A stretch of 64,000 nt of DNA from Agreia sp. VKM Ac-1783 (GTDB taxonomy: Bacteria; Actinomycetota; Actinomycetes; Actinomycetales; Microbacteriaceae): contig NZ_FXWI01000001.1 of the NCBI RefSeq assembly GCF_900177765.1, positions 310,001 to 374,000 on the forward strand, written 5' to 3'. Of this stretch, positions 7,056 to 63,017 are shown piece after piece. The translations under genes and the position numbers were made by a program. Every line of letters starts with the position of its first letter. Positions within the stretch are counted from its first letter, which is position 1. The notes under the pieces were generated by a model. That model was not told the origin of the DNA, searched no databases, and saw nothing but the letters and a program-made list of their open reading frames with translations.

Positions 7056-7059
7056 CACT

Positions 7060-7089
7060 TTTACAACGTTTACTTTACAACGTTGTAAA
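7060..7089. promoter_or_regulatory. Tandem LacI operators (one perfect palindrome, one partial)
   Basis: TTTACAACGTTGTAAA (7074-7089) is a perfect 16-bp palindrome with the central CG typical of LacI operators. It is preceded 14 bp upstream by TTTACAACGTTTAC (7060-7073), which repeats the left half and core. The pair covers the expected transcription start, so bound repressor would block initiation. The core ACAACGTTGTA also occurs just before the LacI gene. Confidence 0.75.
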
Positions 7090-7311
7090 TGACGGAAATT
7101 CGACGTGGTGGCACCCGCCATGATCGATTGCTCGAATCAAGGAGGATTCGTTGATGGTCACATGCCGCACCCTGTGGGCAGGCTCTCTCGCCGGACACTC
7201 CCACCCCTCTCCCGCTTCAGCGCCTGCATCGCAGCGCTAGGGATACGACGCACCCCACCCGAACTCGCGACAGCACCGTCGCGGTTCTTCTTTCGAAGGG
7301 AACCTTTCACA

Positions 7312-8682: not shown

Positions 8683-8697
8683 CACGTCTGCACCCAT

Positions 8698-8737
8698 CGA
8701 CAGGCTCAGGGAACGACACCGTTCCCTGAGCCCGTCG
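8698..8737 (+). repeat. Inverted repeat / intercistronic hairpin between binding protein and permease
   Basis: CGACAGGCTCAGGGAAC (8698-8714) and GTTCCCTGAGCCCGTCG (8721-8737) form a 17-bp stem with one mismatch and a 6-nt loop. The arms belong to a dispersed repeat also seen at 14615-14637. There is no U-tract, so rather than a full terminator it may stabilise the upstream message or attenuate transcription, keeping permease levels below binding-protein levels. Confidence 0.75.
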
Positions 8738-8778
8738 AAGGGCCCCACTCTTCCCTCACAGTCGATCGAAGGACTGAC

Positions 8779-9699
8779 ATGACCAACCCCGCCGCCGTGC
8801 TGAGAGCACCGTCCCGGCGACGCAATCTGCGTCGCCCCTGGATAGGCTGGCTCTTCATCGCTCCGTTCGGAGTGATCTTCCTCGTCTTCCTCGTAGCGCC
8901 CCTCGTCTACGCGTTCTATCTCAGCCTCTTCTCCAAGGGCCTCGCCACCGGAACGACCTTCTCCGGAGCCGGCAACTACGTCAAGGCATTCACCGATCCA
9001 GAGTTCCTCTCCGGCATCTGGTTCGTGATCCGCTTCGCGGTCATCCTCATTCCCATCCAGATGGCCGTCTCACTCGCTGCGGCGCTCGTGCTCGACGCCC
9101 TCACCACGCGGCTCTCGCGCTTCGCCCGACTCGCCATCTTCGTGCCCTACGCCATCCCGGCCGTGGTCGGCACCCTCATGTGGGGCTTTCTTTACAGCCC
9201 GACTTTCGGGCCCCTCACCGACCTGTTCAAGGTGGTCAATCAGAGCGCACCCGAGATCCTGAGCTCGGGCAACATCTTCGGCGGGCTGCTCAACATCGTC
9301 GTCTGGCAGTGGGCCGGCTACTACATGATCATCATCTATGCGGCGCTGCGGGGCATCGACCCCAGCATCTACGAGGCAGCGCGGATCGACGGCGCCGGGC
9401 CACGTCAGATCGCATTCCGCATCAAGGTGCCCATGATCTCGAGCGCCATGGCGCTGATCCTGGTCTTCGCCCTCATCGGCACGCTGCAGTTCTTCACGGA
9501 GCCGCAGGTGCTGAGGCCGATCTCGAACGGCTCGATCACGTCGAGCTTCACCCCCAACATCTACGCCTTCGATCTCGCCTTCCGCTTCTCGCAGTTCAAC
9601 TACGCGTCGACCATCTCGTTCTCGCTCGGCATCGTGGTCTTCATCGCGGTGTACATCTTCTTATTCGCCAGCCGCAAGCGCCGGGGAGGACTGTCATGA
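8779..9699 (+). CDS. Sugar ABC transporter permease 1 (CUT1, MalF-like; operon 1)
   Basis: This 306-residue inner-membrane protein has six predicted helices, beginning with a positively charged N-terminus and WIGWLFIAPFGVIFLVF. The cytoplasmic EAA loop reads EAARIDGAGPRQIAFRIKVP, the site that docks the ATPase. Its stop codon overlaps the ATG of the next permease (ATGA), indicating translational coupling. No ATP-binding gene is present in this operon. Confidence 0.93.
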   Translation: MTNPAAVLRAPSRRRNLRRPWIGWLFIAPFGVIFLVFLVAPLVYAFYLSLFSKGLATGTTFSGAGNYVKAFTDPEFLSGIWFVIRFAVILIPIQMAVSLAAALVLDALTTRLSRFARLAIFVPYAIPAVVGTLMWGFLYSPTFGPLTDLFKVVNQSAPEILSSGNIFGGLLNIVVWQWAGYYMIIIYAALRGIDPSIYEAARIDGAGPRQIAFRIKVPMISSAMALILVFALIGTLQFFTEPQVLRPISNGSITSSFTPNIYAFDLAFRFSQFNYASTISFSLGIVVFIAVYIFLFASRKRRGGLS

Positions 9700-10577
9700 C
9701 GACCATCACCAGAATTCCCACGGCGAAGAAGAGGCCGAACATCACGGCGCACGTGTTCCTCGTGGCCCTGATCATCTACTTCCTGCTTCCGCTGTGGTGG
9801 CTGTTCGTTGCCAGCACCAAAGACCCGCAAGGACTCTTCACGGGCACGGGCGGCGCCCTGTGGTTCGACAAGAACTTCAACCTGCTGGCCAACATCCAGG
9901 AGCTGATCACCTACAAGGGCGGCATCTACTTCCGCTGGCTGGGCAACTCGGCGCTCTATTCCCTGTTGGGCGGAGTGGGCGCGACGATCCTGGCGGTTCT
10001 CGCGGGCTACGGCTTCGCGAAGTTCCCATTCAGGGGGCGAGACTTCTCGTTCGCCGTTCTGCTCGGCTCGGTGATGGTGCCGCTCACAGCGCTGGTGATC
10101 CCGACGTTCATGCTCATGTCTCAACTGCACCTCACGAACACGATCTGGGCGGTCATCCTGCCGTCGCTGCTGAGCCCGTTCGGTGTGTACCTGATGCGGG
10201 TCTACGCGGCAGACGCCGTTCCCGATGAACTGCTCGACGCGGCTCGGGTCGACGGTTCGGGAGAGCTGCGCACTTTCCTCACGGTCGCGCTGCCGCTCAT
10301 GCGCCCCGCTGTCGTCACCGTTCTGCTGCTCTCGGTCGTCGGAACGTGGAACAACTACTTCCTCCCTCTCGCGGTGCTCAGCGACCAGAATCTCTACCCC
10401 GTCACCGTCGGGCTGGGCGGATGGCAGGCACTCGCGGCATCCAATAACGGCGGTGGAACCTCGCTCTACACGCTCATCGTGGTCGGGTCGCTCATCTCGA
10501 TCATTCCGCTCGTGATCGCGTTCCTCTCGCTGCAGAAGTACTGGCAGGGCGGCCTCTCGCTCGGTGCCCTCAAGTAA
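9696..10577 (+). CDS. Sugar ABC transporter permease 2 (CUT1, MalG-like; operon 1)
   Basis: The 293-residue protein starts at ATG 9696, overlapping the previous stop by four bases with GGGGAGGA upstream. Six membrane segments are seen, with the EAA-type motif LLDAARVDGSGELRTFLTVALP and the C-terminal YWQGGLSLGALK typical of MalG-type subunits. It forms a heterodimer with permease 1. A longer ORF from 9180 merely runs through permease 1 in another frame and is rejected. Confidence 0.93.
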   Translation: MTTITRIPTAKKRPNITAHVFLVALIIYFLLPLWWLFVASTKDPQGLFTGTGGALWFDKNFNLLANIQELITYKGGIYFRWLGNSALYSLLGGVGATILAVLAGYGFAKFPFRGRDFSFAVLLGSVMVPLTALVIPTFMLMSQLHLTNTIWAVILPSLLSPFGVYLMRVYAADAVPDELLDAARVDGSGELRTFLTVALPLMRPAVVTVLLLSVVGTWNNYFLPLAVLSDQNLYPVTVGLGGWQALAASNNGGGTSLYTLIVVGSLISIIPLVIAFLSLQKYWQGGLSLGALK

Positions 10578-10632
10578 TCGCCGATCTCTTCACACCAATC
10601 CTTTCTTCACCCCCTTCGACTCGGGAGACACC

Positions 10633-12144
10633 ATGGTCACCGCACGCCTCATCCTCGATCCTCACTTCGCTGTCGGCGCGATCAACCGCCGCATCTTCGG
10701 CTCGTTCGTCGAACATCTCGGACGCTGCGTGTACGACGGCATCTACGAGCCCGGCCACCCGACGGCCGACGACGAGGGCTTCCGGGGCGACGTCATCGAT
10801 CTGGTCAAGGAGCTCGGAACCACCACGATCCGCTACCCCGGCGGCAACTTCGTCTCGGGGTTCAAGTGGGAAGACAGCGTCGGCCCGCGAGAAGACCGAC
10901 CTCGTCGCCTCGACCTGGCCTGGCACTCGACCGAGACCAACCAGATCGGGCTGCACGAGTTCTCGTCGTGGCTGAAGAAGGTCGACAGCGAGCTGATGCT
11001 GGCCATCAACCTGGGCACGCGCGGTGTCGAGGAGGCACTCGATCTGGTCGAGTACACGAACATCCGGTCGGGATCGACGCTGAGCGACCAGCGCATCGCC
11101 AACGGTCAGGTCGAGCCGTTCGGCGTCACGATGTGGTGCCTCGGCAACGAGATGGATGGCCCGTGGCAGCTCGGTCATCGCAACGCCGAGGACTACGGCA
11201 AGATCGCGAGCCAGACGGCGAAGGCCCTGCGCCAGCTCGACGAGCGCCTCGAGCTGGTCGTGTGCGGATCGTCGAGCGCGCAGATGCCCACCTTCGGATC
11301 GTGGGAGCGCACCGTACTTCAGCACAGCTACGAAGACGTCGACTACATCTCGTGCCACGCCTACTACGAGGAGCGCGGGGGAGACCTCACGAGCTTCCTC
11401 GCCTCCGGCGTCAACATGGATCACTTCATCGAGTCGGTCGTGGCGACGGCCGACAGCGTCAAGGCAGAGTTGCGGTCGTCGAAGCAGATCAACATCTCGT
11501 TCGACGAGTGGAACGTCTGGTACATCGACCGCTACCAGCAGGTCGACAGGATCACCGATGTCGAGGAATGGCCGGTCGCACCGCGCCTGCTCGAAGACGT
11601 GTATTCCGTGGCCGACGCGGTCGTGTTCGGCAGCCTGCTCATCTCTCTGCTCAAGCATGCCGATCGCGTGCAGTCGGCGTCGCTGGCACAGCTCGTCAAC
11701 GTGATCGCTCCGATCATGACCGAGCCGGGAGGAGACTCCTGGCGCCAGACCACGTTCTTCCCCTTTGCGGCCACCTCGCGCCTCGCGCAGGGCACGGTTC
11801 TCGAGGTGCGGCTCGAGAGCGACACGCACGAGACGAAGGAGTACGGCACCGTCGCCACCGTCGATGCTGTCGCAACGGTCGATGCCGAAGCCGGAACAGC
11901 CGCCGTCTTCCTCGTGAATCGCAGCGAGACCGAGGAGGCCACGGTCACGATCGATATCTCCGCACTCGGAGACCTCGGCGTGCTCGAGGCATCCACCCTC
12001 GCCGATGACGACGTCTACGCGGCGAACACCCTGGCCGATCAGAATCGTGTCGGGCTCACCCCCAACACGTCTGCTGAGATCGTCGACGGCGTGATCACGA
12101 TCACCCTGCCCGCAGTCTCGTGGAGCGCGGTGAGCCTGGGGTAG
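10633..12144 (+). CDS. abfA: Alpha-N-arabinofuranosidase, GH51 (operon 1)
   Basis: The enzyme removes terminal alpha-L-arabinofuranosyl residues from oligosaccharides. The 503-residue sequence has the GH51 TIM barrel and C-terminal beta-sandwich. The acid/base is Glu173 in CLGNEMDGPWQ and the nucleophile is Glu292 in SFDEWNVWY, with the normal family spacing. No signal peptide is present, so it acts in the cytoplasm on imported oligosaccharides. ATG 10633 is chosen with GGGAGA upstream; the extra 23 codons of the longer frame are not conserved in the paralogue at 54381. It closes the importer operon. Confidence 0.96.
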   Translation: MVTARLILDPHFAVGAINRRIFGSFVEHLGRCVYDGIYEPGHPTADDEGFRGDVIDLVKELGTTTIRYPGGNFVSGFKWEDSVGPREDRPRRLDLAWHSTETNQIGLHEFSSWLKKVDSELMLAINLGTRGVEEALDLVEYTNIRSGSTLSDQRIANGQVEPFGVTMWCLGNEMDGPWQLGHRNAEDYGKIASQTAKALRQLDERLELVVCGSSSAQMPTFGSWERTVLQHSYEDVDYISCHAYYEERGGDLTSFLASGVNMDHFIESVVATADSVKAELRSSKQINISFDEWNVWYIDRYQQVDRITDVEEWPVAPRLLEDVYSVADAVVFGSLLISLLKHADRVQSASLAQLVNVIAPIMTEPGGDSWRQTTFFPFAATSRLAQGTVLEVRLESDTHETKEYGTVATVDAVATVDAEAGTAAVFLVNRSETEEATVTIDISALGDLGVLEASTLADDDVYAANTLADQNRVGLTPNTSAEIVDGVITITLPAVSWSAVSLG

Positions 12145-12153
12145 CGTTCACCC

Positions 12154-13440
12154 ATGAGAATTCTCCTGGTCGGTGCCGGCGGCGTCGGTGACGCCATTGC
12201 CAAGATCGCAGCGCGGCGGTCGTTCTTCGAGCAGATCGTGGTGACCGACTACGACGTCTCGCGCGCCCAGCGCACCGTCGACTGGATCGCGTCGAAGCAC
12301 GGCAGCGAGGTCGCCGGCCGATTCGCGGTCGACGCGATCGACGCATCCGACCCCGACAACGTCGCCGACGTCGCCACGAGGCACGGCGCCACCCACGTGA
12401 TGAATGCTGTGGAGCCCAAGTTCGTGCCCACGATCTTCGCCGGTGCTCTCGCGGCCGGCGCCGACTACCTCGACATGGCGATGAGCCTCTCAGAGCCGCA
12501 CCCCACCGACCCGCACTCCGAAACGGGTGTGAAGCTCGGCGACGACCAGTTCGCGCAGGCGGCCGACTGGGAGACGGCGGGCCGTCTGGCGCTGGTGGGC
12601 ATCGGAGTAGAACCGGGGCTCAGCGACGTGTTCGCGCGCTATGCCGCCGATCACCTCTTCTCGGAGATCGACGAGCTCGGCACCCGCGACGGCGCCAACC
12701 TCGTGGTGCGCGACGAGGCCGGCAATGAGATCTTCGCGCCCAGCTTCTCGATCTGGACCACGATCGAGGAGTGCCTGAACCCTCCCGTGATCTGGGAGAA
12801 GGATCGGGGCTGGTTCACCACGCCGCCGTTCTCCGAGCCCGAGATCTTCACCTTTCCCGAGGGCATCGGCGATGTCGAGTGCGTCAACGTCGAGCACGAA
12901 GAAGTCCTGCTGATGCCGCGCTGGGTCGACGCCAAGCGCGTGACCTTCAAATACGGCCTCGGCAACGAGTTCATCGGCATTCTCAAGACACTGCACCAGC
13001 TCGGCCTCGACTCCACCGTTCCCGTGCGAGTGCGTTCGGCCGCCGGCCCCGTCGAGGTGGCGCCCCGCGACGTGGTCGCTGCCGGACTGCCCGACCCGGC
13101 GACCCTCGGCCCGCGCATGACGGGCAAGACCTGTGCCGGGCTGTGGGTCACGGGAACCGGCGTCGACGGTCGCCCGCGCGAGGTCTACCTCTACCACGTG
13201 GCCGACAACGAGTGGACGATGCGCGAGTACGAGGCGCAGTGCGTGGTGTGGCAGACGGCGCTGAACCCTGTGATCGGACTCGAGCTGCTCAGCACCGGCG
13301 CCTGGTCGGGTGTCGGTGTGCTCGGCCCGGAGGCGTTCGACGCCCGCGCCTTCCTCGAACTGATGCGGGCTCCCGAGTCCGACGGGGGCTACGGGCAGGC
13401 GTGGGGGCTCGAAGACCGCCTCGTTCCACTCATTTCGTGA
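12154..13440 (+). CDS. Saccharopine dehydrogenase-like NAD(P)-binding oxidoreductase
   Basis: This 428-residue protein begins with a Rossmann motif ILLVGAGGVGDAIAKIA (residues 3-19) and has the two-part layout of the saccharopine dehydrogenase superfamily: N-terminal nucleotide binding, then a catalytic/dimerisation region starting near VGIGVEPGLSDVFA. Members reduce or oxidise C-N bonds of amino-acid adducts (saccharopine, carboxynorspermidine), but the substrate here is not evident. It lies nine bases after the GH51 gene and 13 bases before a MenC-like gene, so the two enzymes may form a unit in amino-acid rather than sugar metabolism. Confidence 0.8.
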   Translation: MRILLVGAGGVGDAIAKIAARRSFFEQIVVTDYDVSRAQRTVDWIASKHGSEVAGRFAVDAIDASDPDNVADVATRHGATHVMNAVEPKFVPTIFAGALAAGADYLDMAMSLSEPHPTDPHSETGVKLGDDQFAQAADWETAGRLALVGIGVEPGLSDVFARYAADHLFSEIDELGTRDGANLVVRDEAGNEIFAPSFSIWTTIEECLNPPVIWEKDRGWFTTPPFSEPEIFTFPEGIGDVECVNVEHEEVLLMPRWVDAKRVTFKYGLGNEFIGILKTLHQLGLDSTVPVRVRSAAGPVEVAPRDVVAAGLPDPATLGPRMTGKTCAGLWVTGTGVDGRPREVYLYHVADNEWTMREYEAQCVVWQTALNPVIGLELLSTGAWSGVGVLGPEAFDARAFLELMRAPESDGGYGQAWGLEDRLVPLIS

Positions 13441-13453: not shown

Positions 13454-14563
13454 ATGAAGATCGAGCGCGTCACCCTGCACCGCCTCGCCATGCCTCTCGT
13501 CAGGCCCTTCGAGACGAGCTTCGGAACGCAGACCGAACGCGATGTACTCCTCGTGCACGTCGTCACCTCCGACGGAGTCGAGGGGTGGGGCGAATGCGTG
13601 GCGGGAGCCGACCCCGTGTATTCGAGCGAGTACGTGTCGGGGTGCGAACACCTCATCGAAAACTACCTGGCTCCCGCGATTCTGGCCGAGCCCGACATCA
13701 CGGCCGAGACACTGGATGCGCGGCTGCGCTTCGTGGTCGGCCACCGCATGGCGAAGGCCGCCGTCGAGGCGGCCGTTCTGGATGCCCAGCTGCGCGCATC
13801 CGGAGTCTCATTCGGGAGTTACCTCGGCGCCGTGCGCGACGAGGTCGACTGCGGTGTCTCGGTAGGCATCGCGCCGACTCTCGACGAGCTGCTCGACGAG
13901 GTCTCGGGCTATGTTGCGGAGGGATATCGGCGCATCAAGTTGAAGATCAGGCCCGGCTGGGACCTGGAGCCCGTGGGCGCCGTGCGTGCGCTGATCGGTG
14001 ACGACGCCCTGCTGCAGGTCGACGCGAACACGGCGTACACGACCGACGACATCGACCACCTGCGCCAACTCGATCAGTTCGGGCTGCTGCTCATCGAGCA
14101 GCCCTTCGTCGAAGACGACATCGCGGCTCATGCGCTTCTCGCGGCTGCCATCGACACGCCGGTCTGCCTCGACGAGTCCATCACCTCGGCCGCCGTCGCG
14201 CGCGACGCGATCGAACGCGATGCGACATCGATCATCAACGTGAAGCCGGGCAGGGTCGGGGGATACCTCGAGTCGGTGCGCATCCACGATGTGTGCGCGG
14301 GGCGCGACATCGCCGCGTGGGTCGGCGGCATGCTCGAGACGGGATTGGGCAGAGCCGCCAATGTCGCTCTCGCCGCACTGCCCGGATTCACCCTGCCGGG
14401 AGACACCTCCGCGTCGCGCCGGTACTACGCGGAAGATCTCACGGAGCCTTTCGAGCTCGTCGACGGCCGCCTCCGGGTTCCCACGGGGCCGGGAACGGGA
14501 GTGACCGTGCGCCAGGAGCTCGTCGCCTCGTGGGCGACCCGCCCGCCGCTACTCCTCCGCTGA
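13454..14563 (+). CDS. menC: Enolase-superfamily MenC-like enzyme (o-succinylbenzoate synthase / N-succinylamino acid racemase type)
   Basis: The 369-residue protein aligns with the NSAR/OSBS family. An N-terminal capping domain (TSFGTQTERDVLLVHV, GWGECVAGADPVYSSEY) leads to a barrel. The catalytic pair is Lys162 and Lys164 (RIKLKIRPGWD), the metal ligands are Asp190, Glu215 and Asp240 (LQVDANTAY, LLIEQPF, CLDES), and the second general base is Lys264 (INVKPGRVGG). Members make o-succinylbenzoate for menaquinone or racemise N-succinylamino acids. No other men gene is nearby, while a saccharopine-dehydrogenase-like gene is adjacent, so amino-acid chemistry is plausible. Confidence 0.82.
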   Translation: MKIERVTLHRLAMPLVRPFETSFGTQTERDVLLVHVVTSDGVEGWGECVAGADPVYSSEYVSGCEHLIENYLAPAILAEPDITAETLDARLRFVVGHRMAKAAVEAAVLDAQLRASGVSFGSYLGAVRDEVDCGVSVGIAPTLDELLDEVSGYVAEGYRRIKLKIRPGWDLEPVGAVRALIGDDALLQVDANTAYTTDDIDHLRQLDQFGLLLIEQPFVEDDIAAHALLAAAIDTPVCLDESITSAAVARDAIERDATSIINVKPGRVGGYLESVRIHDVCAGRDIAAWVGGMLETGLGRAANVALAALPGFTLPGDTSASRRYYAEDLTEPFELVDGRLRVPTGPGTGVTVRQELVASWATRPPLLLR

Positions 14564-53129: not shown

Positions 53130-54173
53130 TTAGTCGCTGTCGTCCGCGTTGTGGAATCCTGTGGATTCCCGCGCGACGATACTGAAGCCCGCCTTGACGG
53201 TTCTCGCGGGCATCCGGTCGCCCTTCTCTTGGATTCGCTCGACGAGCAGATCGACCGCTGTTTCGGCGATCTCGAGGCGGCCCGGGTCGACCGTGGTCAA
53301 CGACGGCAACGAGAATCGCCCCTCGTCGATGTTGTCGAATCCGATGACCGCGACGTCGTCGGGAATGCGTAAGCCTGCCTCGCCCAGGGCTCTGAGCGCG
53401 CCGAGCGCGAGGGTGTCGTTGAGGGCGAAGACGGCGTCGAACTCGATCCCGTCTCTCCGCAGGGAGCGGATCGCCGCAGCCCCGGTCTCGCGGCCCCAGT
53501 GGCCCTCCCGCACGATCAGTCGATCGTCGCTCGCGATGCCCGCCGCCTCCAGCGCGCGGAGGTATCCCTGCTCGCGGAGGCTGGCCGAGCTGGCGTTGTC
53601 TTCGGTCTCGACAGGGGCCCCGATCAGGGCGATCCGTGTTCTTCCGATGGAGAGTAGATGCTCCACGGCGGCACACGATGACGAGCTGTTGTGCATGGTG
53701 ACGTGGTCGGTGGGTCCGCCGAAGATGCGTTCGCCGAGAAGCACGACGGGTCCTCGGGTGGCGAGGAGATCCACGTCTTTCTGGCCGAGCTGTGCAGGGC
53801 TGAAGAGCAGTCCATCGACGAAGCGCAGCTGCCCGCCCGAGAGGGCCTCGATCTCGAGTTCGCGGTCGCCGTTCGTCTGCTCGATCACGACGCGGAGACC
53901 TCGACGGGCGGCAGCACGGATGACCGAGTCCGCGAGTTCTGCGAAGTAGTTCTCGCGAAGAGAGGGTACGGCGAGGGCGATCATGCTGGTCTTGCCCGAG
54001 CGAAGGCCCCGTGCCGAGAGATTGGGGCGGTAGCCCAGTTCGTCGATCAGTCGCAGGATCCGTGCCCGGGTGTCGGGCCCGACCTTCGGGTTGTCGTTCA
54101 GCACGTTGGAGACGGTCTTGATCGAGACGCCGGCCGCGCGGGCGACATCGTGAATGGTCGGAACCGTACTCAC
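53130..54173 (-). CDS. LacI family repressor of arabinofuranoside operon 2
   Basis: The 347-residue protein shares motif blocks with the operon-1 LacI throughout: HTH IHDVARAAGVSIKTVSNVLND, hinge NLSARGLRSGKTS, DHVTMHN and VIGFDNIDEGRFSLPSLTT. It lies divergently next to the GH51-transporter-catabolic operon 2, whose promoter contains GGTACAACGATGTACC, an operator related to TTTACAACGTTGTAAA. It probably responds to arabinose-related ligands. Confidence 0.92.
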   Translation of the reverse strand: MSTVPTIHDVARAAGVSIKTVSNVLNDNPKVGPDTRARILRLIDELGYRPNLSARGLRSGKTSMIALAVPSLRENYFAELADSVIRAAARRGLRVVIEQTNGDRELEIEALSGGQLRFVDGLLFSPAQLGQKDVDLLATRGPVVLLGERIFGGPTDHVTMHNSSSSCAAVEHLLSIGRTRIALIGAPVETEDNASSASLREQGYLRALEAAGIASDDRLIVREGHWGRETGAAAIRSLRRDGIEFDAVFALNDTLALGALRALGEAGLRIPDDVAVIGFDNIDEGRFSLPSLTTVDPGRLEIAETAVDLLVERIQEKGDRMPARTVKAGFSIVARESTGFHNADDSD

Positions 54174-54263: not shown

Positions 54264-54292
54264 TTGACGTTCGCGGATCGCGCTCCTACTAT
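54264..54292 (+). promoter_or_regulatory. Sigma-70-type promoter of arabinofuranoside operon 2
   Basis: TTGACG (54264-54269) and TACTAT (54287-54292) are separated by exactly 17 bp. Transcription would begin near 54299, inside the operator. The arrangement is the same as that of the operon-1 promoter at 7027-7055. Confidence 0.65.
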
Positions 54293-54295
54293 CTA

Positions 54296-54311
54296 GGTAC
54301 AACGATGTACC
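54296..54311. promoter_or_regulatory. LacI operator of arabinofuranoside operon 2
   Basis: GGTACAACGATGTACC is a 16-bp near-palindrome (only the central pair of A/T positions breaks symmetry). It shares ACAACG and the spacing with the operon-1 operators. It covers the predicted transcription start about 70 bp before the GH51 ATG. Confidence 0.7.
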
Positions 54312-54380: not shown

Positions 54381-55892
54381 ATGCTGAACGCCCACCTCGA
54401 CCTCGATCCGGCCTCCCTCGTCGGCCCCGTCAACCGACGCGTCTTCGGCTCCTTCGTGGAGCACCTGGGGCGATGCGTCTACGACGGCATCTACGAGCCG
54501 GGTCACCCGGCGGCGAACGCCGATGGCTTTCGCACCGACGTCGTCGATCTGGTGCGCGAACTCGGAGTCTCGACCGTTCGCTACCCCGGCGGCAACTTCG
54601 TCTCGGGCTACCGCTGGGAGGACGGCACGGGGCCCCGCGAGTCGAGGCCGAGCCGCCTCGACCTCGCCTGGCACTCCATCGAGAGCAATGAGATCGGCCT
54701 CGACGAATTCTCGCGCTGGCTCACGCTGGTCGACGGCGAACTGATGTACGCGGTCAATCTGGGCACGCGCGGGGTCCAAGAGGCGCTCGACGTTCTGGAG
54801 TATGCCAACATCCGCTCGGGAACCGAGCTGTCGAACCAGCGCATCGCCAACGGGTCGCCGCAACCCCACGGCATCCGGATCTGGTGTCTCGGCAACGAGA
54901 TGGACGGCCCCTGGCAGCTCGGCCATTCGACGGCGGCGGAGTACGCGCAACGTGCCGCCCAGACCGCTCGCGCCATGCGTCAGGTCGACGCGACGCTCGA
55001 GCTCGTCGTCTGCGGCAGCTCGGGGGCAGGGATGCCGACCTTCGGCGAGTGGGAGCGCATCGTTCTCGAGAAGACCTACGACGAGGTCGACTTCATCTCA
55101 TGCCACGCGTACTACGAGCCGGTGGAGGGAGACTTCGCCAGCTTTCTCGCATCCGCCGTCGACATGGACCGGTTCATCGAATCCGTCGTGGCGACCGCAG
55201 ATCACGTGAAGGCCCTCCGCCGAAGCGAGAAGACGGTGAACGTCTCGTTCGACGAGTGGAACGTCTGGTACCAGTCGCGCTACAACGAGGTCGAGAAGAT
55301 CACCGATGCCGACACCTGGCCTCAGGCGCCGCGCCTGCTCGAAGACTCCTACTCGGTCATGGACGCCGTCGTCTTCGGAGGCCTGCTGATCTCTCTGCTC
55401 CGTCATGCCGACCGGGTGACGGCGGCGAGCCTCGCCCAGCTCGTCAACGTGATCGCACCGATCATGACGGAGCCGGGCGGGCCGGCTTGGCGGCAGACCA
55501 CGTTCTACCCGTTCTCCATCACCTCGAGACTCGCGAGGGGCGCGGCTCTGCGGGTCAGGCTCGATTCCCCCAGCACGCCCACGGATGCCTACGGCGACGT
55601 ACAGATGGTCGATGCTGTGGCGACTCACGATGAGGCATCCGGCGCCACGTCGGTGTTCCTCGTGAACCGCAGTCTCACAGAGACCGTGACGGTCGACATC
55701 GCCGTCGACCGACTCGGTATCGAGAGCCTCGACAGCGTCGAGAGCATCTTCGACGACGACATCCACGCGGCGAACACCCTGACGCACCCCGATCGGGTGG
55801 TGCCCAAGACCAACACCACAGCGCGACTGCACGACGGCACGGTGACCATCAGCCTGCCGCCGGTCTCATGGACCGCACTCGCCATGCACTGA
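54381..55892 (+). CDS. abfA: Alpha-N-arabinofuranosidase, GH51 (operon 2)
   Basis: The 503-residue protein is collinear with the operon-1 GH51: same length, acid/base Glu173 (CLGNEMDGPWQ) and nucleophile Glu292 (SFDEWNVWY), and a C-terminal beta-sandwich with FYPFSITSRLARG. It has no signal peptide, so it processes imported oligosaccharides. ATG 54381 is preceded by GGAG; the longer frame start at 54324 lies in the leader. It is the first gene of a seven-gene operon, whereas its paralogue is the last gene of operon 1. Confidence 0.96.
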   Translation: MLNAHLDLDPASLVGPVNRRVFGSFVEHLGRCVYDGIYEPGHPAANADGFRTDVVDLVRELGVSTVRYPGGNFVSGYRWEDGTGPRESRPSRLDLAWHSIESNEIGLDEFSRWLTLVDGELMYAVNLGTRGVQEALDVLEYANIRSGTELSNQRIANGSPQPHGIRIWCLGNEMDGPWQLGHSTAAEYAQRAAQTARAMRQVDATLELVVCGSSGAGMPTFGEWERIVLEKTYDEVDFISCHAYYEPVEGDFASFLASAVDMDRFIESVVATADHVKALRRSEKTVNVSFDEWNVWYQSRYNEVEKITDADTWPQAPRLLEDSYSVMDAVVFGGLLISLLRHADRVTAASLAQLVNVIAPIMTEPGGPAWRQTTFYPFSITSRLARGAALRVRLDSPSTPTDAYGDVQMVDAVATHDEASGATSVFLVNRSLTETVTVDIAVDRLGIESLDSVESIFDDDIHAANTLTHPDRVVPKTNTTARLHDGTVTISLPPVSWTALAMH

Positions 55893-55926: not shown

Positions 55927-57240
55927 GTGAAAAAGAGAGTTCTTGCCGCCGCCGTGGCAACCGTGGCCACGCTGGTCGCGCTCACCGGATGCACAGGGAG
56001 CAGCGACGCTCCCTCGGGCGCCGGCGTCCCCACAGACAAGCCCATCACTCTGAAAGTGTGGAGCTGGGACGGCACCGTCAAAGAAGCCGTGCCCGGTTTC
56101 GAGAAGCTCTACCCCAACATCACGGTCGATGTGATCAACGCGGGTTCGTCGACCGATGAATACACGGCCCTCGACAACGCGATCCAGGCAGGATCGGGCG
56201 TGCCCGACATCGCCATGTTCGAATACTTCTCCCTGCCGCTCTTCGCGATCCCCGGCAAGCTCACCGATCTCTCCGAGTTCGGGGCCGAGGACATCGCATC
56301 CGACTATGTCGACGCCGCGTGGGGCAACGTCACGATCGACGGCAAGCCCTATGCCCTCCCGTCTGACTACGGGCCCGCCGCCCTGTTCTACAACCAAGCC
56401 GTTCTGACCGAGGCCGGAGTGACGGCGCCGCCTGCTACCTGGGACGAGTTCTACGAGGCCGCGAAGAAGGTGCGGGCGCTGGGAGGAGATCACTACATCA
56501 CCAACGACTCGGCTGACATCTTCCTTCTCCTGTCGCTGATCTGGGAGGGCGGCGGACGGCCGTTCAAGGTCGACGGCTCGAACGTGACGATCGACTTCAC
56601 CGATGAGGGAACCACCCGCGCGGTCGAGTTCTGGCAGAAGATGCTCGACGAAGACCTGGTCAACACCAAGGTCACCGGATGGTCTGACGACTGGAACCGC
56701 GGCCTGAACGAGGGCACCATCGCCACGCAGATCATCGGCAGCTGGTTCACCTCGACCCTCCCCGAGCGGGCTCCGGATGCCGCGGGCGACTTCCGCATCG
56801 CACCGCTGCCTCAGTGGGAGGCCGGCGAGACCTCGGGTTCGGAGAACGGCGGCAGCGCCATGGCGATTCCGGCCGATGCGAAGAACAAGGAGGCCGCGTA
56901 CGCCTTCCTCGAGTACTTCACGCACGGCGACGGCCTGCAGTCGCGAATCGACGCCGGAGCCTTCGTGCCCAACCTCTCCAACCTCGACGACGAGAAGTTC
57001 CTCGGTACGACCAACGAGTTCTTCGGCGACCAGAAATACAACGAGGTGCTGGCCGAGGCATCGAAGAACGTAGCCACAGGCTGGCAGTACCCGCCGTTCT
57101 TCGGATGGGCGCGCACGAGCTATGAAGACGTGTCGGCACCGCTCTACAACAGCGGCAAGGGCACACTCGCCGACGTGCTGGAGACGTGGAAGCAGCGCAG
57201 CATCGAGTACGGCAACGAACAGGGATTCACGGTCAAGTAG
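55927..57240 (+). CDS. Sugar ABC transporter substrate-binding lipoprotein (operon 2)
   Basis: This 437-residue protein starts at GTG 55927 with AGAAGGAG upstream. The signal peptide ends in LTGC (cysteine 22), followed by a Ser/Gly linker and a family-1 binding fold (LKVWSWDGTVKEAVPGFEKL, GVPDIAMFEYF, YALPSDYGPAALFYN). It parallels the operon-1 binding protein in fold landmarks and shares its GFTVK C-terminus. The next permease gene begins directly after its stop, with no intervening hairpin. Confidence 0.93.
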   Translation: MKKRVLAAAVATVATLVALTGCTGSSDAPSGAGVPTDKPITLKVWSWDGTVKEAVPGFEKLYPNITVDVINAGSSTDEYTALDNAIQAGSGVPDIAMFEYFSLPLFAIPGKLTDLSEFGAEDIASDYVDAAWGNVTIDGKPYALPSDYGPAALFYNQAVLTEAGVTAPPATWDEFYEAAKKVRALGGDHYITNDSADIFLLLSLIWEGGGRPFKVDGSNVTIDFTDEGTTRAVEFWQKMLDEDLVNTKVTGWSDDWNRGLNEGTIATQIIGSWFTSTLPERAPDAAGDFRIAPLPQWEAGETSGSENGGSAMAIPADAKNKEAAYAFLEYFTHGDGLQSRIDAGAFVPNLSNLDDEKFLGTTNEFFGDQKYNEVLAEASKNVATGWQYPPFFGWARTSYEDVSAPLYNSGKGTLADVLETWKQRSIEYGNEQGFTVK

Positions 57241-58143
57241 ATGTCGTCGGCCACCACGAACGCCATCAGGGTTCACAAACGCCCGAAGGTGGGCCTGCTC
57301 TTCATCGCCCCCTTCGCCGTGCTTTTCCTCTTCGTTCTCGTCATTCCGATCTGCTACTCCGCGTACATCAGCCTGTTCCAGAACAAGCTCATCGGTGGGA
57401 ACGCGTTCGTGGGGCTCGACAACTACATCAAGCTCTTCAACGATCCGCAGTTCTACGACGGCGCGATCCGCGTTGTGGTCTTCACGGCGATCCAGGTGCC
57501 GATCATGCTCCTCAGCGCGATCGCGCTGGCCCTGGCGATCGACTCGCTCCGCCTGCACGGAACGAAGTTCTTCAGGGTCGTCGTCTTCCTCCCCTACGCG
57601 ATCCCGGCGATCGTGTCGACGCTCATGTGGGGCTTTATGCTCGGCATCCGCTACGGGCTGATCGGCAGTCTGAACGAGGCGGCGGGAACCTCCTTCGATC
57701 CCTTCGCACCCGAGACGACGATGATCTCGATCGGGGTCATGGCCACGTGGGGTTTCACCGGCTACAACATGCTGATCTTCTATGCCGCGCTGCGGGCGGT
57801 GCCACGCGAGTTGTACGAGGCCGCGGCGATCGACGGCGCGAACGAGTTCCACATCGTGCGCTACATCAAATTGCCTGCACTTCGCGGGTCGCTGGTGGTC
57901 ACGATCATCTTCTCGATCATCGGCACGTTCCAACTGTTCAACGAGCCCAACATCTTGGCGACGCTCGTCTCGAACAGCGGCATCACGTCGTACTACACGC
58001 CGAATCTGTATGCCTACAACCTGGCGTTCACAGGCTCGCAACAGGGGTACGCCGCGGCTCTGGCGATCGTCATGGCGCTCTTCACCATCGCCATCGCCTA
58101 CGTCGTGCAGATCAAGGGAATGAAGAATGTCCTCAACAAGTAG
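57241..58143 (+). CDS. Sugar ABC transporter permease 1 (MalF-like; operon 2)
   Basis: The ATG abuts the stop of the binding protein. The 300-residue protein has six helices (VGLLFIAPFAVLFLFVLVIP first) and the EAA motif LYEAAAIDGANEFHIVRYIKLP. It resembles permease 1 of operon 1 in the PYAIPAIVSTLMWGF segment. Its 3' end overlaps the next gene by 17 bases. Confidence 0.93.
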   Translation: MSSATTNAIRVHKRPKVGLLFIAPFAVLFLFVLVIPICYSAYISLFQNKLIGGNAFVGLDNYIKLFNDPQFYDGAIRVVVFTAIQVPIMLLSAIALALAIDSLRLHGTKFFRVVVFLPYAIPAIVSTLMWGFMLGIRYGLIGSLNEAAGTSFDPFAPETTMISIGVMATWGFTGYNMLIFYAALRAVPRELYEAAAIDGANEFHIVRYIKLPALRGSLVVTIIFSIIGTFQLFNEPNILATLVSNSGITSYYTPNLYAYNLAFTGSQQGYAAALAIVMALFTIAIAYVVQIKGMKNVLNK

Positions 58144-59026
58144 CGCCCTCGCTCGAGGCAAGAAGCTCTATACGCTCTCGAATCCGCGCAAGAGCACGAC
58201 GCTCACGCTCCTGACCGGGCTCTTCGCGCTGTACTGTCTGCTGCCGATGGTCTGGCTCGTGATCAACGCCACGAAGTCACAGCAGGATTTCGTGTCGTCG
58301 TTCGGACTCGCTTTCGGCGATCACTTCGCGCTGTGGGACAACGTGGTGCAGGTGTTCACCTTTCAAGAGGGCATCTTCGCTCGTTGGTTGCTGAACACCG
58401 TGCTCTACGTCGTCGTCGGAGCGCTGGTGTCGACGCTCCTCGCCGCCCTCGGCGGCTACGCGCTGGCCAAGCACGACTTCATCGGAAAGCGCGTCTTCCT
58501 CCTGGTCGTGCTGGGCTCCATCTCGGTGCCCGGAATCGCGCTCGCGATCCCGCAGTTCTTGCTGTTCGCGCAGCTGGGAATCACGAACACCCCGTGGGCC
58601 ATCCTCATCCCGTCGTTCATCAACCCCTTCGGGCTGTACCTCATGTGGGTCTTCACGGCCCAGGCGGTACCCGACGGGCTCATCGAGGCCGCCCGCATCG
58701 ACGGCGCGGGAGAGTTCCGCATCTTCAGGCAGATCGCGTTTCCGCTGCTCGCCCCCGCCACCGTCACGGTGCTGCTCTTCTCGTTCGTGTCGATCTGGAA
58801 CAACTACTTCCTGCCGCTGATCATGTTGAAGGACCCGGCCTGGTATCCGCTCACCATCGGTATCAATCAGTGGAACAAGCTGGGCTCGACGGCGGGAAAC
58901 GGAGAATTGATCCAGAACCTGGTGATCACCGCGTCGTTGCTGACGATCATCCCTCTCGTCATCGCGTTCCTGAGTCTTCAGCGCTATTGGCAGTCCGGCC
59001 TTGCGCTGGGCGCGATCAAAGACTGA
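58127..59026 (+). CDS. Sugar ABC transporter permease 2 (MalG-like; operon 2)
   Basis: The 299-residue protein starts inside the 3' end of permease 1 (17-bp overlap), so translation is coupled. Six helices are evident, with the EAA motif LIEAARIDGAGEFRIFRQIAFP and C-terminal YWQSGLALGAIKD. As in the other importers, no ATPase gene is linked. Confidence 0.93.
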   Translation: MSSTSSALARGKKLYTLSNPRKSTTLTLLTGLFALYCLLPMVWLVINATKSQQDFVSSFGLAFGDHFALWDNVVQVFTFQEGIFARWLLNTVLYVVVGALVSTLLAALGGYALAKHDFIGKRVFLLVVLGSISVPGIALAIPQFLLFAQLGITNTPWAILIPSFINPFGLYLMWVFTAQAVPDGLIEAARIDGAGEFRIFRQIAFPLLAPATVTVLLFSFVSIWNNYFLPLIMLKDPAWYPLTIGINQWNKLGSTAGNGELIQNLVITASLLTIIPLVIAFLSLQRYWQSGLALGAIKD

Positions 59027-59069: not shown

Positions 59070-60065
59070 ATGAGTCTCTCCCGAAACGACTGGCCCATCG
59101 CTGCCAGCATGCTCCCGTTCTCGGACGTGGCGCCCAGCGGTGTTCCGGTGCAGGATGCCGGGCCCGAGGAGTGGGCGCGGGTGCTCGGTGAGGTGGCGGA
59201 CGCGGGTTTCGACTGCGTCGATTTCACCGACAACTGGGTGAAGGTCGGCGACCTGTCGCCTGCGCGACTCGACGATCTTGCCGCCGCGTCGGCCCAGGCG
59301 GGTCTTCGGCCCGCGTCGGTGTCGGCGATCAGGCGCAGCGTCATCGATGCGGAGAACGGAGCGGACAACCTCGCCTACAGTCACCGCACTCTCGAGGCGG
59401 CCGCGCGACTGGGCATCGAGGTCGTCTCGTTCGGGCTGCACCAGGCGCTCACCCGAGAGCAGCGCGAGCAGCTCTGGTTCTGGACCGTCGATGGACATCG
59501 CGACGATCCCGACGACGTCGAGGCCTGGATGCTCGCGGTGGCGCGACTTCGCGAGCTCGGCCGTCACGCCGAGGAACTCGGCCAGCTCGTCTCGCTGGAG
59601 CTCTACGAGGACACGTACCTCGGAACGGCGGATTCATCGGTGCGGCTCGTCGAGGAGATAGGCCTCGAGAATGTCGGTCTGAACCCCGACATCGGAAATC
59701 TGATCCGGTTGCATCGTCGGGTGGAGTCGTGGGAGGAAATCGTCGCGAAGACGGTGCCATACGCCAACTTCTGGCACGTCAAGAACTACGCTCGCGACGA
59801 GGACAGGGCGCGCGAGCAGTACTTCGCTGTGCCGGCTCCGATGGAGTCGGGCCTCATCAACTATCGAGCCGCCATCGCATCCGCGATCGCGGCGGGATTC
59901 CAGGGCATCCTGTGCACCGAGAATTACGGTGGCGACGGACTCAGCGTGTGCGCGGCCAATCGCGACTACCTGCGCAGACACGCTCTGCCCAAATCGGCCG
60001 ATTACGTGCCCGGCCGCAGCCGCGTGCGCCAGGGCTCGTTGAGCGTCGAGCGATCGACCCCCTAG
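59070..60065 (+). CDS. Sugar phosphate isomerase/epimerase (xylose isomerase-like TIM barrel)
   Basis: The 331-residue protein from ATG 59070 shows the AP-endonuclease-2/xylose isomerase-like barrel. Landmarks are FDCVDFTDNW, VSLELYEDTYLGTADSSVRLVEEIGLENVGLNPDIGN (metal ligands in Glu and Asp), NFWHVKNYARD and GFQGILCTENYGGDG. Such enzymes isomerise or epimerise sugars, and this one lies between the importer and a DAK-family kinase. It probably converts the imported monosaccharide to a keto form; the substrate is inferred only. Confidence 0.88.
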   Translation: MSLSRNDWPIAASMLPFSDVAPSGVPVQDAGPEEWARVLGEVADAGFDCVDFTDNWVKVGDLSPARLDDLAAASAQAGLRPASVSAIRRSVIDAENGADNLAYSHRTLEAAARLGIEVVSFGLHQALTREQREQLWFWTVDGHRDDPDDVEAWMLAVARLRELGRHAEELGQLVSLELYEDTYLGTADSSVRLVEEIGLENVGLNPDIGNLIRLHRRVESWEEIVAKTVPYANFWHVKNYARDEDRAREQYFAVPAPMESGLINYRAAIASAIAAGFQGILCTENYGGDGLSVCAANRDYLRRHALPKSADYVPGRSRVRQGSLSVERSTP

Positions 60066-60124
60066 ACCGAGATTCTTTATCCGGTTTCAGGTTTCTCACG
60101 CAGGTTTCTAGCAAAGGAGATGCA

Positions 60125-61852
60125 ATGACGCGTCTATTCAACAATCCAGACGATTTCACGTCGGAGGCGCTGAAGGGCTTCGCTCGGGTGCACGCAGACG
60201 CCGTCGAACTCGTCGACGGCGGAGTGGTACGGCGCCACCGCCCGGACGGACCCCGGGTGGCGGTCGTGATCGGGGGCGGATCGGGGCACTATCCGGCGTT
60301 CGCCGGAGTGGTCGGGCCGGGGCTGGCGACCGCCGCCGTCTGCGGCCAGGTGTTCACCTCTCCCTCTGCCGGCCAGGCCTATCGGGTGGCGGCCGCCGCC
60401 GAGTCCGGAGCGGGAGTCCTCTTCAGCTTCGGCAACTATGCCGGCGACGTTCTGCACTTCGCCGCCGCAGAAGAGAAGCTGCGCGCCGAGGGCCACGATG
60501 TGCGCACCGTTCTCGTCACAGACGACATCGCGAGTGCTCCGCTCGGCGAGATGGAGAAGCGCCGCGGCATTGCCGGCGACTTCGCCGTGTTCAAGGTGGC
60601 CGGAGCGGCGGCAGAGCGAGGATTCTCGCTCGACGACGTGGAGCGCGTCGCCCGCGAGGCCAACCGTCGAACGCGCAGCCTCGGCGTGGCCTTCAGCGGC
60701 TGCACGTTTCCCGGGTCCGACAAGCCGCTGTTCACGGTTCCCGAGGGGCAGATGTCGATCGGCCTCGGCATCCACGGCGAACCGGGCATCGACGAGGTGC
60801 CGATGACGGGTGCCGCCGAGCTCGCGAAGCTCCTCGTTTCGCGTCTGCTCGACGACGCTCCAGACGACCGCGGTAGTCGAGTGGCCGTGATGGTCAACGG
60901 GCTCGGCACGGTGAAATACGAAGAGCTCTTCGTGCTGTATTCGGGCGTCGCCGACGAACTCGAGGCAGCGGGCCTGACCATCGTCGAGCCCGAATGCGGC
61001 GAACTCGTCACGAGCCTCGACATGGCCGGGGTGTCGGTGACGCTCGTGTGGCTCGATGACGAGATCGAGCAACTGTGGCGTGATCCGGCCTGGTCGCCCG
61101 CCTATCGCAAGGGCGACACGCGGTCGGCTGCGTTCTCGCGCGACGCGCCCCGGGCATCCACCGAGTCGCGCCCGTCGGAGGGCGCCGGTGCTGCCGTGGC
61201 GCCTGACGACGTGTCACCGGCCTCGGCGGCGCGAGCCGCACTCGCGCTGCGCCTGATGGTGGCAGTGCGTGAGACGCTGCACGAGAACCGCGACGAACTC
61301 GGCCGCATCGATGCGATCGCGGGCGACGGCGACCACGGGGCCGGCATGGTGCACGGCATCGATGCGGCCGTGCGCAGCGCCCGCGACGCACCCGGTGTCG
61401 GAGTCCGAGAGCTCTTGGCGAACGCGGGCGATGCCTGGAGCGACGAAGCGGGTGGCACATCCGGCGCTCTCTGGGCCGCTGCGCTCCAGGCCATGGGAGA
61501 GGCCGCGGAGAACGGTTCCGACTCAGATGAGGAGACGGCCGTCGCTGTGGCCCGAGCTGCGCTCGACGGCATCCAGCGTCTGGGCAAGGCTCAGCCGGGC
61601 GACAAGACCATGATCGACTCTCTCGTGCCCTACGTCGACACGCTCTCCGACGAGATCGCCGCCGGTGTCTCGCTTGACGCGGCTCTCCAGACGGCGGCCT
61701 CCGCTGCGACCCGGGCCGCCGTCGAGACCGCGCGGCTGCGGCCCGCGCTCGGCCGGGCGCGTCCGCTCGCAGAAAAGAGCCTCGGGCATCCGGATGCCGG
61801 CGCGACGTCGCTCGCGCTCATCGCCGAACGCATTGCGACCGAGATCTCGTGA
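60125..61852 (+). CDS. Dihydroxyacetone kinase family protein (DhaK-DhaL fusion; candidate ketotetrose/apulose kinase)
   Basis: Starting at ATG 60125 with AAAGGAG upstream gives 575 residues. The DhaK (DAK1) half has GGGSGHYPAFAG, GNYAGDVL and the substrate-binding His217 in GLGIHGEPG. The DhaL (DAK2) half carries the ATP site GDGDHG near residue 402 and GGTSGALWAAAL. ATP-dependent members phosphorylate dihydroxyacetone, L- or D-erythrulose or D-apulose. Because the gene follows an isomerase in a sugar operon, a keto-sugar other than dihydroxyacetone is plausible. Confidence 0.9.
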   Translation: MTRLFNNPDDFTSEALKGFARVHADAVELVDGGVVRRHRPDGPRVAVVIGGGSGHYPAFAGVVGPGLATAAVCGQVFTSPSAGQAYRVAAAAESGAGVLFSFGNYAGDVLHFAAAEEKLRAEGHDVRTVLVTDDIASAPLGEMEKRRGIAGDFAVFKVAGAAAERGFSLDDVERVAREANRRTRSLGVAFSGCTFPGSDKPLFTVPEGQMSIGLGIHGEPGIDEVPMTGAAELAKLLVSRLLDDAPDDRGSRVAVMVNGLGTVKYEELFVLYSGVADELEAAGLTIVEPECGELVTSLDMAGVSVTLVWLDDEIEQLWRDPAWSPAYRKGDTRSAAFSRDAPRASTESRPSEGAGAAVAPDDVSPASAARAALALRLMVAVRETLHENRDELGRIDAIAGDGDHGAGMVHGIDAAVRSARDAPGVGVRELLANAGDAWSDEAGGTSGALWAAALQAMGEAAENGSDSDEETAVAVARAALDGIQRLGKAQPGDKTMIDSLVPYVDTLSDEIAAGVSLDAALQTAASAATRAAVETARLRPALGRARPLAEKSLGHPDAGATSLALIAERIATEIS

Positions 61853-61898
61853 CCGAACCGACCCCCGAATCGAAGCACAGACACCGAGGAGAAACATC

Positions 61899-62849
61899 AT
61901 GATCAGGACAGTCGCCGTCATCGGTTCGGGATACATGGGCGGTGGCATCGCGCAGGTACTGGCCCTCTCCGGAGCCTCGGTCCGCCTGGCGGACATCTCC
62001 GAGGAGATCGCCGCGAAGAACCTCGCGCGGGTGATCGCCGAGGCGACTCAGTTCGAGTCGGAGGGCCTCTTTCCCGAGTGCGCCGCGGCCACCATCGAGC
62101 GCAACATCTCGGCCGCCGCGTCGATCGAGGAGGCGGTCGTCGGCGTCGACTTCGTCGAAGAGGCCGTGCCGGAGATCCTCTCGGTCAAGCACGAGACGCT
62201 CGCGAGGATCAGCTCGGCCGCCGGCCCCGAGACCATCATCGGCAGCAATACCTCGACGATCTCGATCAACGCCCTGGCCGAGGCCGTGGTCGCACCCGAG
62301 CGTTTCCTCGGCATCCACTTCTCGAACCCGGCGCCGTTCATCCCGGGCGTCGAGTTGATTCCGCACGATGGCACGGATGCGGCGATCCTCCCTCCCGTCG
62401 AAGAGCTGCTCACAGCGGCAGGAAAGTCGAGTGCGCGCATCACAGATTCCACCGGGTTCGTACTCAACAGGCTGCAATACGCCCTCTTTCACGAGGCGAC
62501 GCAGCTCGTCGAGGAGGGTGTGGCGACACCCGAGGACATCGACACGATCGTGCGCACGACCTTCGGATTCCGCCTGCCCTTCTTCGGGCCGTTCCTCATC
62601 GCCGATATGGCCGGGCTCGACGTGTACTCGTTCTGCTACACCTCCCTGCAGACGCGGTTCGACGAGAGGTTCGCCACACCGAAGATCCTGAGCGACCTGG
62701 TCGATGCCGGCAGACTGGGCACGAAGACGGGCGGCGGTTTCATCGACATCGCATCCGACAGAACGCCGGAGCTCATCGCCTACCGCAATAAGGCCTACGT
62801 GAAGATGCAGCAGCTGCTCGACGAGCTGGGTCCTGCTCCGACCGCCTGA
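61899..62849 (+). CDS. 3-hydroxyacyl-CoA dehydrogenase family protein (sugar-acid dehydrogenase candidate)
   Basis: The 316-residue protein starts at ATG 61899 after GAGGAGAAA. The N-terminal Rossmann motif VAVIGSGYMGGGIAQVLA binds NAD. The HCDH blocks GSNTSTISINALAEAV, FLGIHFSNPAPFIPGVELIP (catalytic His) and SSARITDSTGFVLNRLQYALFHEA follow, then a C-terminal helical domain. The family includes L-gulonate 3-dehydrogenase and carnitine dehydrogenase as well as fatty-acid enzymes; the sugar operon favours a polyol- or sugar-acid substrate. It ends the seven-gene operon. Confidence 0.88.
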   Translation: MIRTVAVIGSGYMGGGIAQVLALSGASVRLADISEEIAAKNLARVIAEATQFESEGLFPECAAATIERNISAAASIEEAVVGVDFVEEAVPEILSVKHETLARISSAAGPETIIGSNTSTISINALAEAVVAPERFLGIHFSNPAPFIPGVELIPHDGTDAAILPPVEELLTAAGKSSARITDSTGFVLNRLQYALFHEATQLVEEGVATPEDIDTIVRTTFGFRLPFFGPFLIADMAGLDVYSFCYTSLQTRFDERFATPKILSDLVDAGRLGTKTGGGFIDIASDRTPELIAYRNKAYVKMQQLLDELGPAPTA

Positions 62850-62929: not shown

Positions 62930-63017
62930 GGTGGCGTACTCAAGCGGCCGAAGAGGCACGCTTGGAAAGCGTGTATAGGGCAACCTATCGAGAGTTCGAA
63001 TCTCTCCGCCACCGCCA
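62930..63017 (+). tRNA. tRNA-Ser (anticodon GGA)
   Basis: The acceptor arms GGTGGCG (62930-62936) and CGCCACC (63007-63013) pair fully, followed by discriminator G and an encoded CCA (63015-63017). The anticodon stem-loop contains CTTGGAAAG, giving GGA. A long variable arm (about 17 nt, TATAGGGCAACCTATCG) is typical of serine tRNAs, and GTTCGAATC forms the T loop. Confidence 0.97.

Follow-up and report, generated by a model that had tools for sequence, protein, structure and literature searches.

What do a sugar-isomerase-like barrel, a kinase and a dehydrogenase do at the end of an arabinofuranosidase operon? The question is raised by a 64-kb stretch of the Agreia sp. VKM Ac-1783 genome (C7:310001-374000, hereafter the window; coordinates are window positions unless prefixed C6 or C7). 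Here a GH51 arabinofuranosidase gene and three ABC importer genes run, with small or no gaps and on the same strand, into genes for a xylose-isomerase-like metal barrel, a DhaK-DhaL (DAK-family) kinase and a 3-hydroxyacyl-CoA-dehydrogenase-family (HCDH) enzyme. These three open reading frames, referred to below as the trio, had been pointed out by an earlier sequence-only reading and are indeed intact; they begin 43 bp past the last permease gene and are separated by gaps of 59 and 46 bp. Annotated records name the barrel a 'sugar phosphate isomerase/epimerase family protein' and the kinase a 'dihydroxyacetone kinase family protein', and no published description of the barrel, DAK and HCDH set was found in the literature searched, which agrees with the earlier suggestion of an undescribed route.

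We tentatively propose that the operon serves to take up sugars containing arabinofuranose, which GH51 then trims, and that it carries a LacI-controlled D-erythrulose cassette fed by a sugar acid. The HCDH-family enzyme would oxidise a C5 sugar acid at C3, and loss of CO2 from the 3-oxo acid would lead to D-erythrulose; the metal barrel would either catalyse this decarboxylation or epimerise the ketose formed. The DAK enzyme would convert D-erythrulose to D-erythrulose-4-phosphate, from which an unlinked RpiB-type isomerase (C6:900816-901283) would form D-erythrose-4-phosphate for the pentose phosphate pathway. A hydroxy acid is suggested as the feed because HCDH, PdxA, lactonase or hydroxyacid-dehydrogenase genes are present in some of the related loci, a C5 acid because the loss of one carbon from it gives erythrulose, and the D form because RpiB occurs without LerI. 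Gene identities, operon layout, recurrence, RpiB pairing and the operator were read from the sequence, whereas we infer every substrate and reaction, most of all the acid at the start and how it is formed.

The trio is not confined to this genome. A query with the barrel protein gave 117 relatives among 157 candidate stretches of a species-genome collection, and the best 80 loci were analysed; gene counts in them use fixed score limits and are lower bounds, since some loci end at contig ends. An HCDH homologue was found in 67 of the 80 loci (directly after the barrel in 35), a DAK homologue in 64 and both in 57. DerI-like RpiB genes occurred in 50 loci, lying between DAK and HCDH in 26 of them. 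A TPI-like LerI was present in 33 loci, a transporter of the acid type (MFS, GntP or Tct) in 37, a GH51 gene in 14 and a homologue of the divergent regulator LacI_B (at least 200 bits) in 13. Less frequent were DUF1537-kinase-like and L-threonate-dehydrogenase-like genes (ten loci each), PdxA and ALO/alditol-oxidase-like genes (five each), and SMP-30-type genes and genes for FMN-dependent dehydrogenases (three each). Recurrence on this scale rules out the trio as a mere passenger, and we regard it as a recurrent, uncharacterised and probably regulated cassette. The same counts bear on an ordinary neutral-sugar step, in which the barrel would isomerise or epimerise a pentose or tetrose, DAK would phosphorylate the ketose and HCDH would be incidental. 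Such a step suits the barrel fold and the GH51/GH3 and ABC-importer context, but we consider it improbable: the frequency and position of HCDH show that it is not incidental, and acid-type transporters are found in nearly half of the loci.

In a tree of 82 barrel proteins (from the 80 loci, the window and a second barrel gene elsewhere in this genome), a 20-row clade with support of 97/93 holds 13 of the 15 GH51-linked rows, the window counted. Its 19 loci other than the window include 18 with HCDH, 17 with DAK, 16 with RpiB, 12 with GH51 and 11 with a LacI_B homologue, and none with LerI, an acid transporter or an SDR gene; in the 61 loci outside the clade these last three number 33, 37 and 36, respectively. 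Inside the clade, the Microbacterium loci L003-L006 also have an ALO/alditol-oxidase-like gene, and L003-L005 a GH3-type gene. Isolates of Curtobacterium came from tetrose enrichments, L-erythrulose included, according to PMC12780249; most Curtobacterium loci in the barrel tree are of the acid-linked kind, so these isolates serve as background only. The record of L031 is titled Planococcus sp. (Bacillota), whereas its barrel clusters with Microbacterium, and the assembly is possibly mislabelled or contaminated.

Could the trio simply replace the usual arabinose genes? The absence of araA, araB and araD noted earlier holds within the window only. Approximately 7-11 kb before the window start, araB (558 amino acids), araD (240) and araA (505) are consecutive at C7:298802-302711 on the opposite strand, with xylB and xylA beyond; araA was named by Pfam (AraA_N, PF02610, at C7:301224) and the others were recognised from their translations. 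In addition, araA was found in all 14 genomes whose barrel locus carries GH51. The trio as an araBAD replacement is thus ruled out, and it is therefore additional to the ordinary arabinose route.

The clearest indication of what the cassette handles comes from the kinase and its partners. The window kinase belongs to the DAK family (PF02733, 382 bits; PF02734, 154.3 bits). It reached 363 on the model for glycerone (dihydroxyacetone) kinase proper (TIGR02361, cutoff 574.95), and there was no erythrulose-kinase model among its NCBIfam matches. Its pairing with RpiB suggests an erythrulose kinase. A kinase, RpiB and LerI would together define erythrulose-phosphate metabolism; the roles of LerK, LerI and DerI are described in PMC10733421. 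The sequence-only reading had proposed a branched or short-chain sugar such as apiose or a tetrose. The short-chain part stands, as a C4 sugar route fits best given the repeated pairing of the DAK kinase with a DerI-like RpiB, while apiose is not borne out. That the sugar comes from pectin, as was also suggested there, is possible. Tetritol catabolism in Mycobacterium (Mycolicibacterium) smegmatis, where DerK is said to act, reportedly employs a DAK-family kinase, as the trio would. In that system an RpiB-type isomerase likewise leads to D-erythrose-4-phosphate and LerI is present, as in barrel loci of other lineages; its erythrulose is supplied by polyol dehydrogenases, whereas the trio loci have the barrel and HCDH instead, in an arabinofuranosidase regulon (PMC10733421 and PMC12780249).

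Two RpiB genes were found in this genome. Mean identity to the 31 trio-linked RpiBs picked up by gene calling is 65% for the C6 copy and 27% for the C7 copy. On RPI_actino (cutoff 168.2) the C6 copy scores 182.1 and the RpiB linked in L006 200.2; the latter scores 156.2 on NF051858. In all four genus relatives compared (G020, G021, G022, by position Agreia sp. Leaf210, and G026), the C6-type RpiB is part of an ApnO-OiaC-LerI-RpiB-DAK-MFS cluster, which is flanked by genes for a siderophore-interacting protein and an MMPL protein. Two further genomes with RpiB (G023 and G024) are outside the four compared, and G025 has no RpiB. Between the same flanks in this genome, RpiB alone is left, with its frame open; the ApnO, OiaC, LerI, DAK and MFS genes are missing, ~2.4 kb and ~3.3 kb are gone on its two sides, and a 67-bp stretch beside it is 78% similar to the lost DAK gene. 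Loss of the cluster here is the simpler story, because G021 and G026 have the cluster and no close barrel. Retention of RpiB after this loss would be expected if the window DAK supplies its substrate. The genome has one TPI and no LerI (best score of a LerI query 102.5 bits, 36%), and thus no L-erythrulose route of the M. smegmatis type; therefore only the D-erythrulose branch would be complete. In the Pseudolysinimonas genome that contains L039, the LerI homologue consists of two adjacent pieces (G014:C1:1138535-1139226), possibly a broken gene.

DAK family membership would also suit the oxidation of a C4 acid (threonate or erythronate) at C3 and its decarboxylation to dihydroxyacetone, which DAK would convert to dihydroxyacetone phosphate. 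The DUF1537-kinase-like and L-threonate-dehydrogenase-like genes mentioned above point the same way, yet neither occurs in the 19 loci of the GH51-holding clade, and RpiB, so often linked, has no place in such a route. Separate DhaK-like and DhaL-like matches elsewhere in this genome count against it as well, and they rule out that the window kinase is the cell's sole DAK-like protein. We therefore rate the C4-acid route as quite unlikely.

For the first step, residues S119, H140, E152 and N190 of the HCDH enzyme are present in all 33 aligned rows (the window and 32 of the 67 loci with HCDH), as the HCDH family requires; presumably these Ser, His, Glu and Asn are catalytic. Its predicted structure is confident (predicted local distance difference test, pLDDT, 93.6), and a fold search with it matched the family in general only, including lambda-crystallin and FHMPC dehydrogenase at 26-32% identity. 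Lambda-crystallin (CRYL1, L-gulonate 3-dehydrogenase) and FHMPC 5-dehydrogenase act on free acids, and share with the trio enzyme the family, the fold, an NAD-type Rossmann domain and the conserved Ser/His/Glu/Asn. NCBIfam equivalog models for two named activities stayed below their cutoffs: the best score for 3-hydroxybutyryl-CoA dehydrogenase was 219.8 against 427, and the two carnitine dehydrogenase models gave 123.7 against 592 and 111.4 against 414. PdxA-family enzymes oxidise 3-hydroxy acids, and HCDH is absent from all five PdxA loci; because of this, HCDH and PdxA may fill one slot. The rhizobial plasmid loci L084, L085 and L086 present a PdxA version of the cassette (GntR, PdxA, Tct transporter, barrel, DAK), with L085 additionally carrying a 3-hydroxyacyl-CoA dehydrogenase gene beside fatty-acid genes on the other strand. 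On pSymB of Sinorhizobium meliloti 1021 the order, from tblastn, is GntR, PdxA, TctC, TctA, barrel and DAK.

The barrel is a xylose-isomerase-like TIM barrel (PF01261, 89.3 bits). Residues E177, D207 and E284 are found in all 40 aligned rows (the window, 37 of the 80 loci and two plasmid loci) and H236 in 35, the other five having Gln; we take these four positions to be metal ligands. For its predicted structure (pLDDT 94.4) the nearest solved one is 5tnv, an M. smegmatis protein with Mg whose function is not named. Subsequent neighbours include UlaE and D-psicose, D-tagatose and L-ribulose 3-epimerases, and a weak NCBIfam match to D-psicose 3-epimerase (NF051856, 20.1 bits, cutoff 300) falls far short of an assignment. 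Both hint at an erythrulose 3-epimerase: HCDH would oxidise L-arabinonate at C3, spontaneous decarboxylation of the 3-oxo acid would give L-erythrulose, and the barrel would turn this into D-erythrulose for DAK and RpiB, as a side branch of arabinose use. The arabinofuranoside context, the operator and the lack of LerI in this genome would suit such a branch. It is nonetheless unlikely in view of the araBDA genes in the same genome, araA throughout the GH51-type genomes and LerI in 33 of the 80 barrel loci, where it would be needless given an epimerase. The second barrel gene of this genome (57% identity) stands last in a gene row at L148:7481-14210 (C6 ~873.5-880.2 kb). This row has an SMP-30-type lactonase but no DAK or HCDH, and it includes a sugar ABC importer of the ribose type that was recognised from the translations.

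The remaining candidate is D-apiose or D-apionate. The known D-apionate route, reportedly described together with that of D-apiose by Carter et al. 2018, uses an AP_endonuc_2 barrel (the decarboxylase is said to be OiaC), DAK, LerI and DerI. It resembles the proposed route in passing from a sugar acid to a 3-oxo acid, in decarboxylation by such a barrel and in an L-erythrulose kinase with isomerases. The D-apiose and D-apionate pathways are also treated in PMC6302742 and PMC11747546. The trio loci differ in having a different barrel, HCDH instead of a PGDH_C enzyme, and no ApnL-, ApnO- or OiaC-like gene; in the GH51-holding clade, linked LerI is missing too. Apionate-type genes are found elsewhere. 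The Microbacterium genomes examined, GH51-type or trio-bearing, have them at another locus apart from the trio (L099-L105), where genes for an ApnL-like and a PGDH_C protein (PF16896) are accompanied by LerI, RpiB, DAK and an AP_endonuc_2 barrel that differs from the trio barrel. Most of these loci also contain an MFS transporter, and an apiosidase-like gene occurs in L101, L104 and L105. By gene content this locus is a D-apionate route. DAK homologues in the apionate-like clusters are ~50-58% identical. At the set limits, ApnO-, OiaC-, ApnL- and apiosidase-like genes occurred in none of the 80 trio loci, which rules out the trio as the known D-apionate cluster. This genome gave no PF16896 or NF049900 match, a weak result alone as control genomes also gave none, and its syntenic site lacks the cluster. 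In addition, HCDH could not oxidise apionate at C3, where the carbon is tertiary. With D-apionate-type genes forming a separate locus in relatives and not found here, degradation of D-apiose or D-apionate by the cassette is very improbable, and apiose as the substrate proposed earlier is not upheld. In L098 of Agreia sp. Leaf210 (positions 1282-2994), the PGDH_C (ApnO-like) frame continues with no stop into that of the siderophore-interacting protein, giving a 570-amino-acid open reading frame.

The predicted regulation would tie the trio to arabinofuranoside use. A candidate target sequence of LacI_B is TACAACGATGTA. Searching the 3.76-Mb genome for TACAACGWTGTA with at most one mismatch gave four sites (the reversed control gave 0): one in the trio operon (operon B), two in the paralogous GH51 operon A (Table 1) and one at C6:883142 with one mismatch. 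Operon A, the LacI and GH51 proteins of which are 54% and 66% identical to those of operon B, probably belongs to the same regulon. Both contain the gene kinds of GH51 ArfA operons with LacI and an ABC importer; operon A is such an operon without the trio, whereas operon B differs from it in carrying the predicted erythrulose cassette. Among the 80 barrel loci there were 14 exact operator sites, all of them in 12 of the 14 GH51-linked loci. In seven of the 20 loci scanned site by site the operator lies just before the barrel gene (exact in L031; one mismatch in L002, L026, L028, L032, L037 and L038). Given this distribution, these lineages probably have the trio and the GH51/importer genes in one predicted LacI regulon. 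In 11 further loci, the binding proteins encoded near the trio are 55-60% identical to that of operon A and 27-31% to that of operon B; LacI and GH51 in nine of those 11 loci are closer to those of operon B, with L036 and L039 as exceptions.

Several observations weigh against a D-erythrulose cassette fed by a sugar acid. The operon contains no acid-making enzyme (sugar dehydrogenase or lactonase), and HCDH-family matches, by sequence, would fit a CoA ester as well as a free sugar acid. Most of the 50 structural neighbours listed for the barrel are 3-epimerases or isomerases. A barrel acting as decarboxylase should also be superfluous in PdxA loci if PdxA itself carries out the decarboxylation. 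The association is imperfect, with HCDH but no DAK in ten of the 80 loci, DAK but no HCDH in seven and neither in six. Of the 14 GH51 loci, L036 and L039 are placed outside the clade; DAK is missing from both, and also from L002 within the clade. The GH51-linked loci L007 and L009 lack the operator. The retained RpiB could have another cause. LerI occurs somewhere in 16 of the 19 relatives' genomes tested (two lack it and one has it in two pieces) and in nine of the 12 GH51-type genomes tested, so that an L-erythrulose branch is possible there. As for the apionate cluster, it was named by gene content: the ApnL-like protein of L099 reaches 211.9 bits on NF049900 (cutoff 750, E 1.7e-62), and no ApnO or OiaC model was matched.

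The coordinates of operons A and B are collected in Table 1. Behind operon A lie two genes that are odd at the end of an arabinofuranosidase operon, one saccharopine-dehydrogenase-like (12154-13440) and one for a MenC-like member of the enolase superfamily (13454-14563). At 62930-63017, 80 bp past the trio operon, the plus strand carries a gene for tRNA-Ser (GGA).

Table 1. Genes and candidate regulatory sites of the two GH51 operons, in window positions.
Feature	Position	Strand	Evidence or remark
Second candidate operator, one mismatch	5909-5920		Before LacI_A of operon A
Paralogous operon A: LacI_A, binding protein, two permeases, GH51 ArfA	5931-12144	+	Second permease recognised in the 9180-10577 frame
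Third candidate operator, exact	7076-7087		Before the solute-binding protein of operon A
LacI-family regulator LacI_B	53130-54173	-	Divergent from the GH51 operon
Sigma-70-like promoter, TTGACG-17-TACTAT	54264-54292	+	One found, shuffles mean 0.8 (weak alone); directly beside the operator
Candidate LacI-type operator, palindrome GGTACAACGATGTACC	54296-54311		72 bp ahead of the GH51 start codon (54384)
GH51 arabinofuranosidase, ArfA type	54384-55892	+	NF051901, 702.8 bits (cutoff 625)
ABC importer solute-binding protein	55927-57240	+	PF01547
ABC importer permease, first	57241-58143	+	PF00528
ABC importer permease, second	58127-59026	+	PF00528
Xylose-isomerase-like metal TIM barrel, 331 amino acids	59070-60065	+	PF01261; proposed 3-oxo-acid decarboxylase or ketose 3-epimerase
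DhaK-DhaL fused kinase, 575 amino acids	60125-61852	+	NF011049, 737 bits, Dak1+Dak2; proposed erythrulose kinase
HCDH-family enzyme, 316 amino acids	61899-62849	+	PF02737+PF00725 (3HCDH_N+3HCDH); proposed sugar-acid C3 dehydrogenase

Taken together, the trio is neither an arabinose substitute nor the known apiose route, and is most likely an erythrulose-forming branch. A more specific version, which we hold to be rather less likely, is an undescribed oxidative pentose pathway in an actinobacterial arabinofuranoside regulon: a free pentonate would be oxidised at C3 by HCDH and decarboxylated by the barrel, and D-erythrulose would pass to erythrose-4-phosphate, beside araBAD. If true, such a pathway would parallel the 6-phosphogluconate dehydrogenase step, with compounds that are one carbon shorter and unphosphorylated. 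If the erythrulose cassette is real, its HCDH and barrel enzymes would provide new means of producing or consuming C4 sugars. A cassette of many actinobacteria, with related genes in rhizobia, would gain a testable function and join the few tetrulose pathways, and it would offer a handle on a plant sugar or sugar acid that these bacteria use alongside arabinose.

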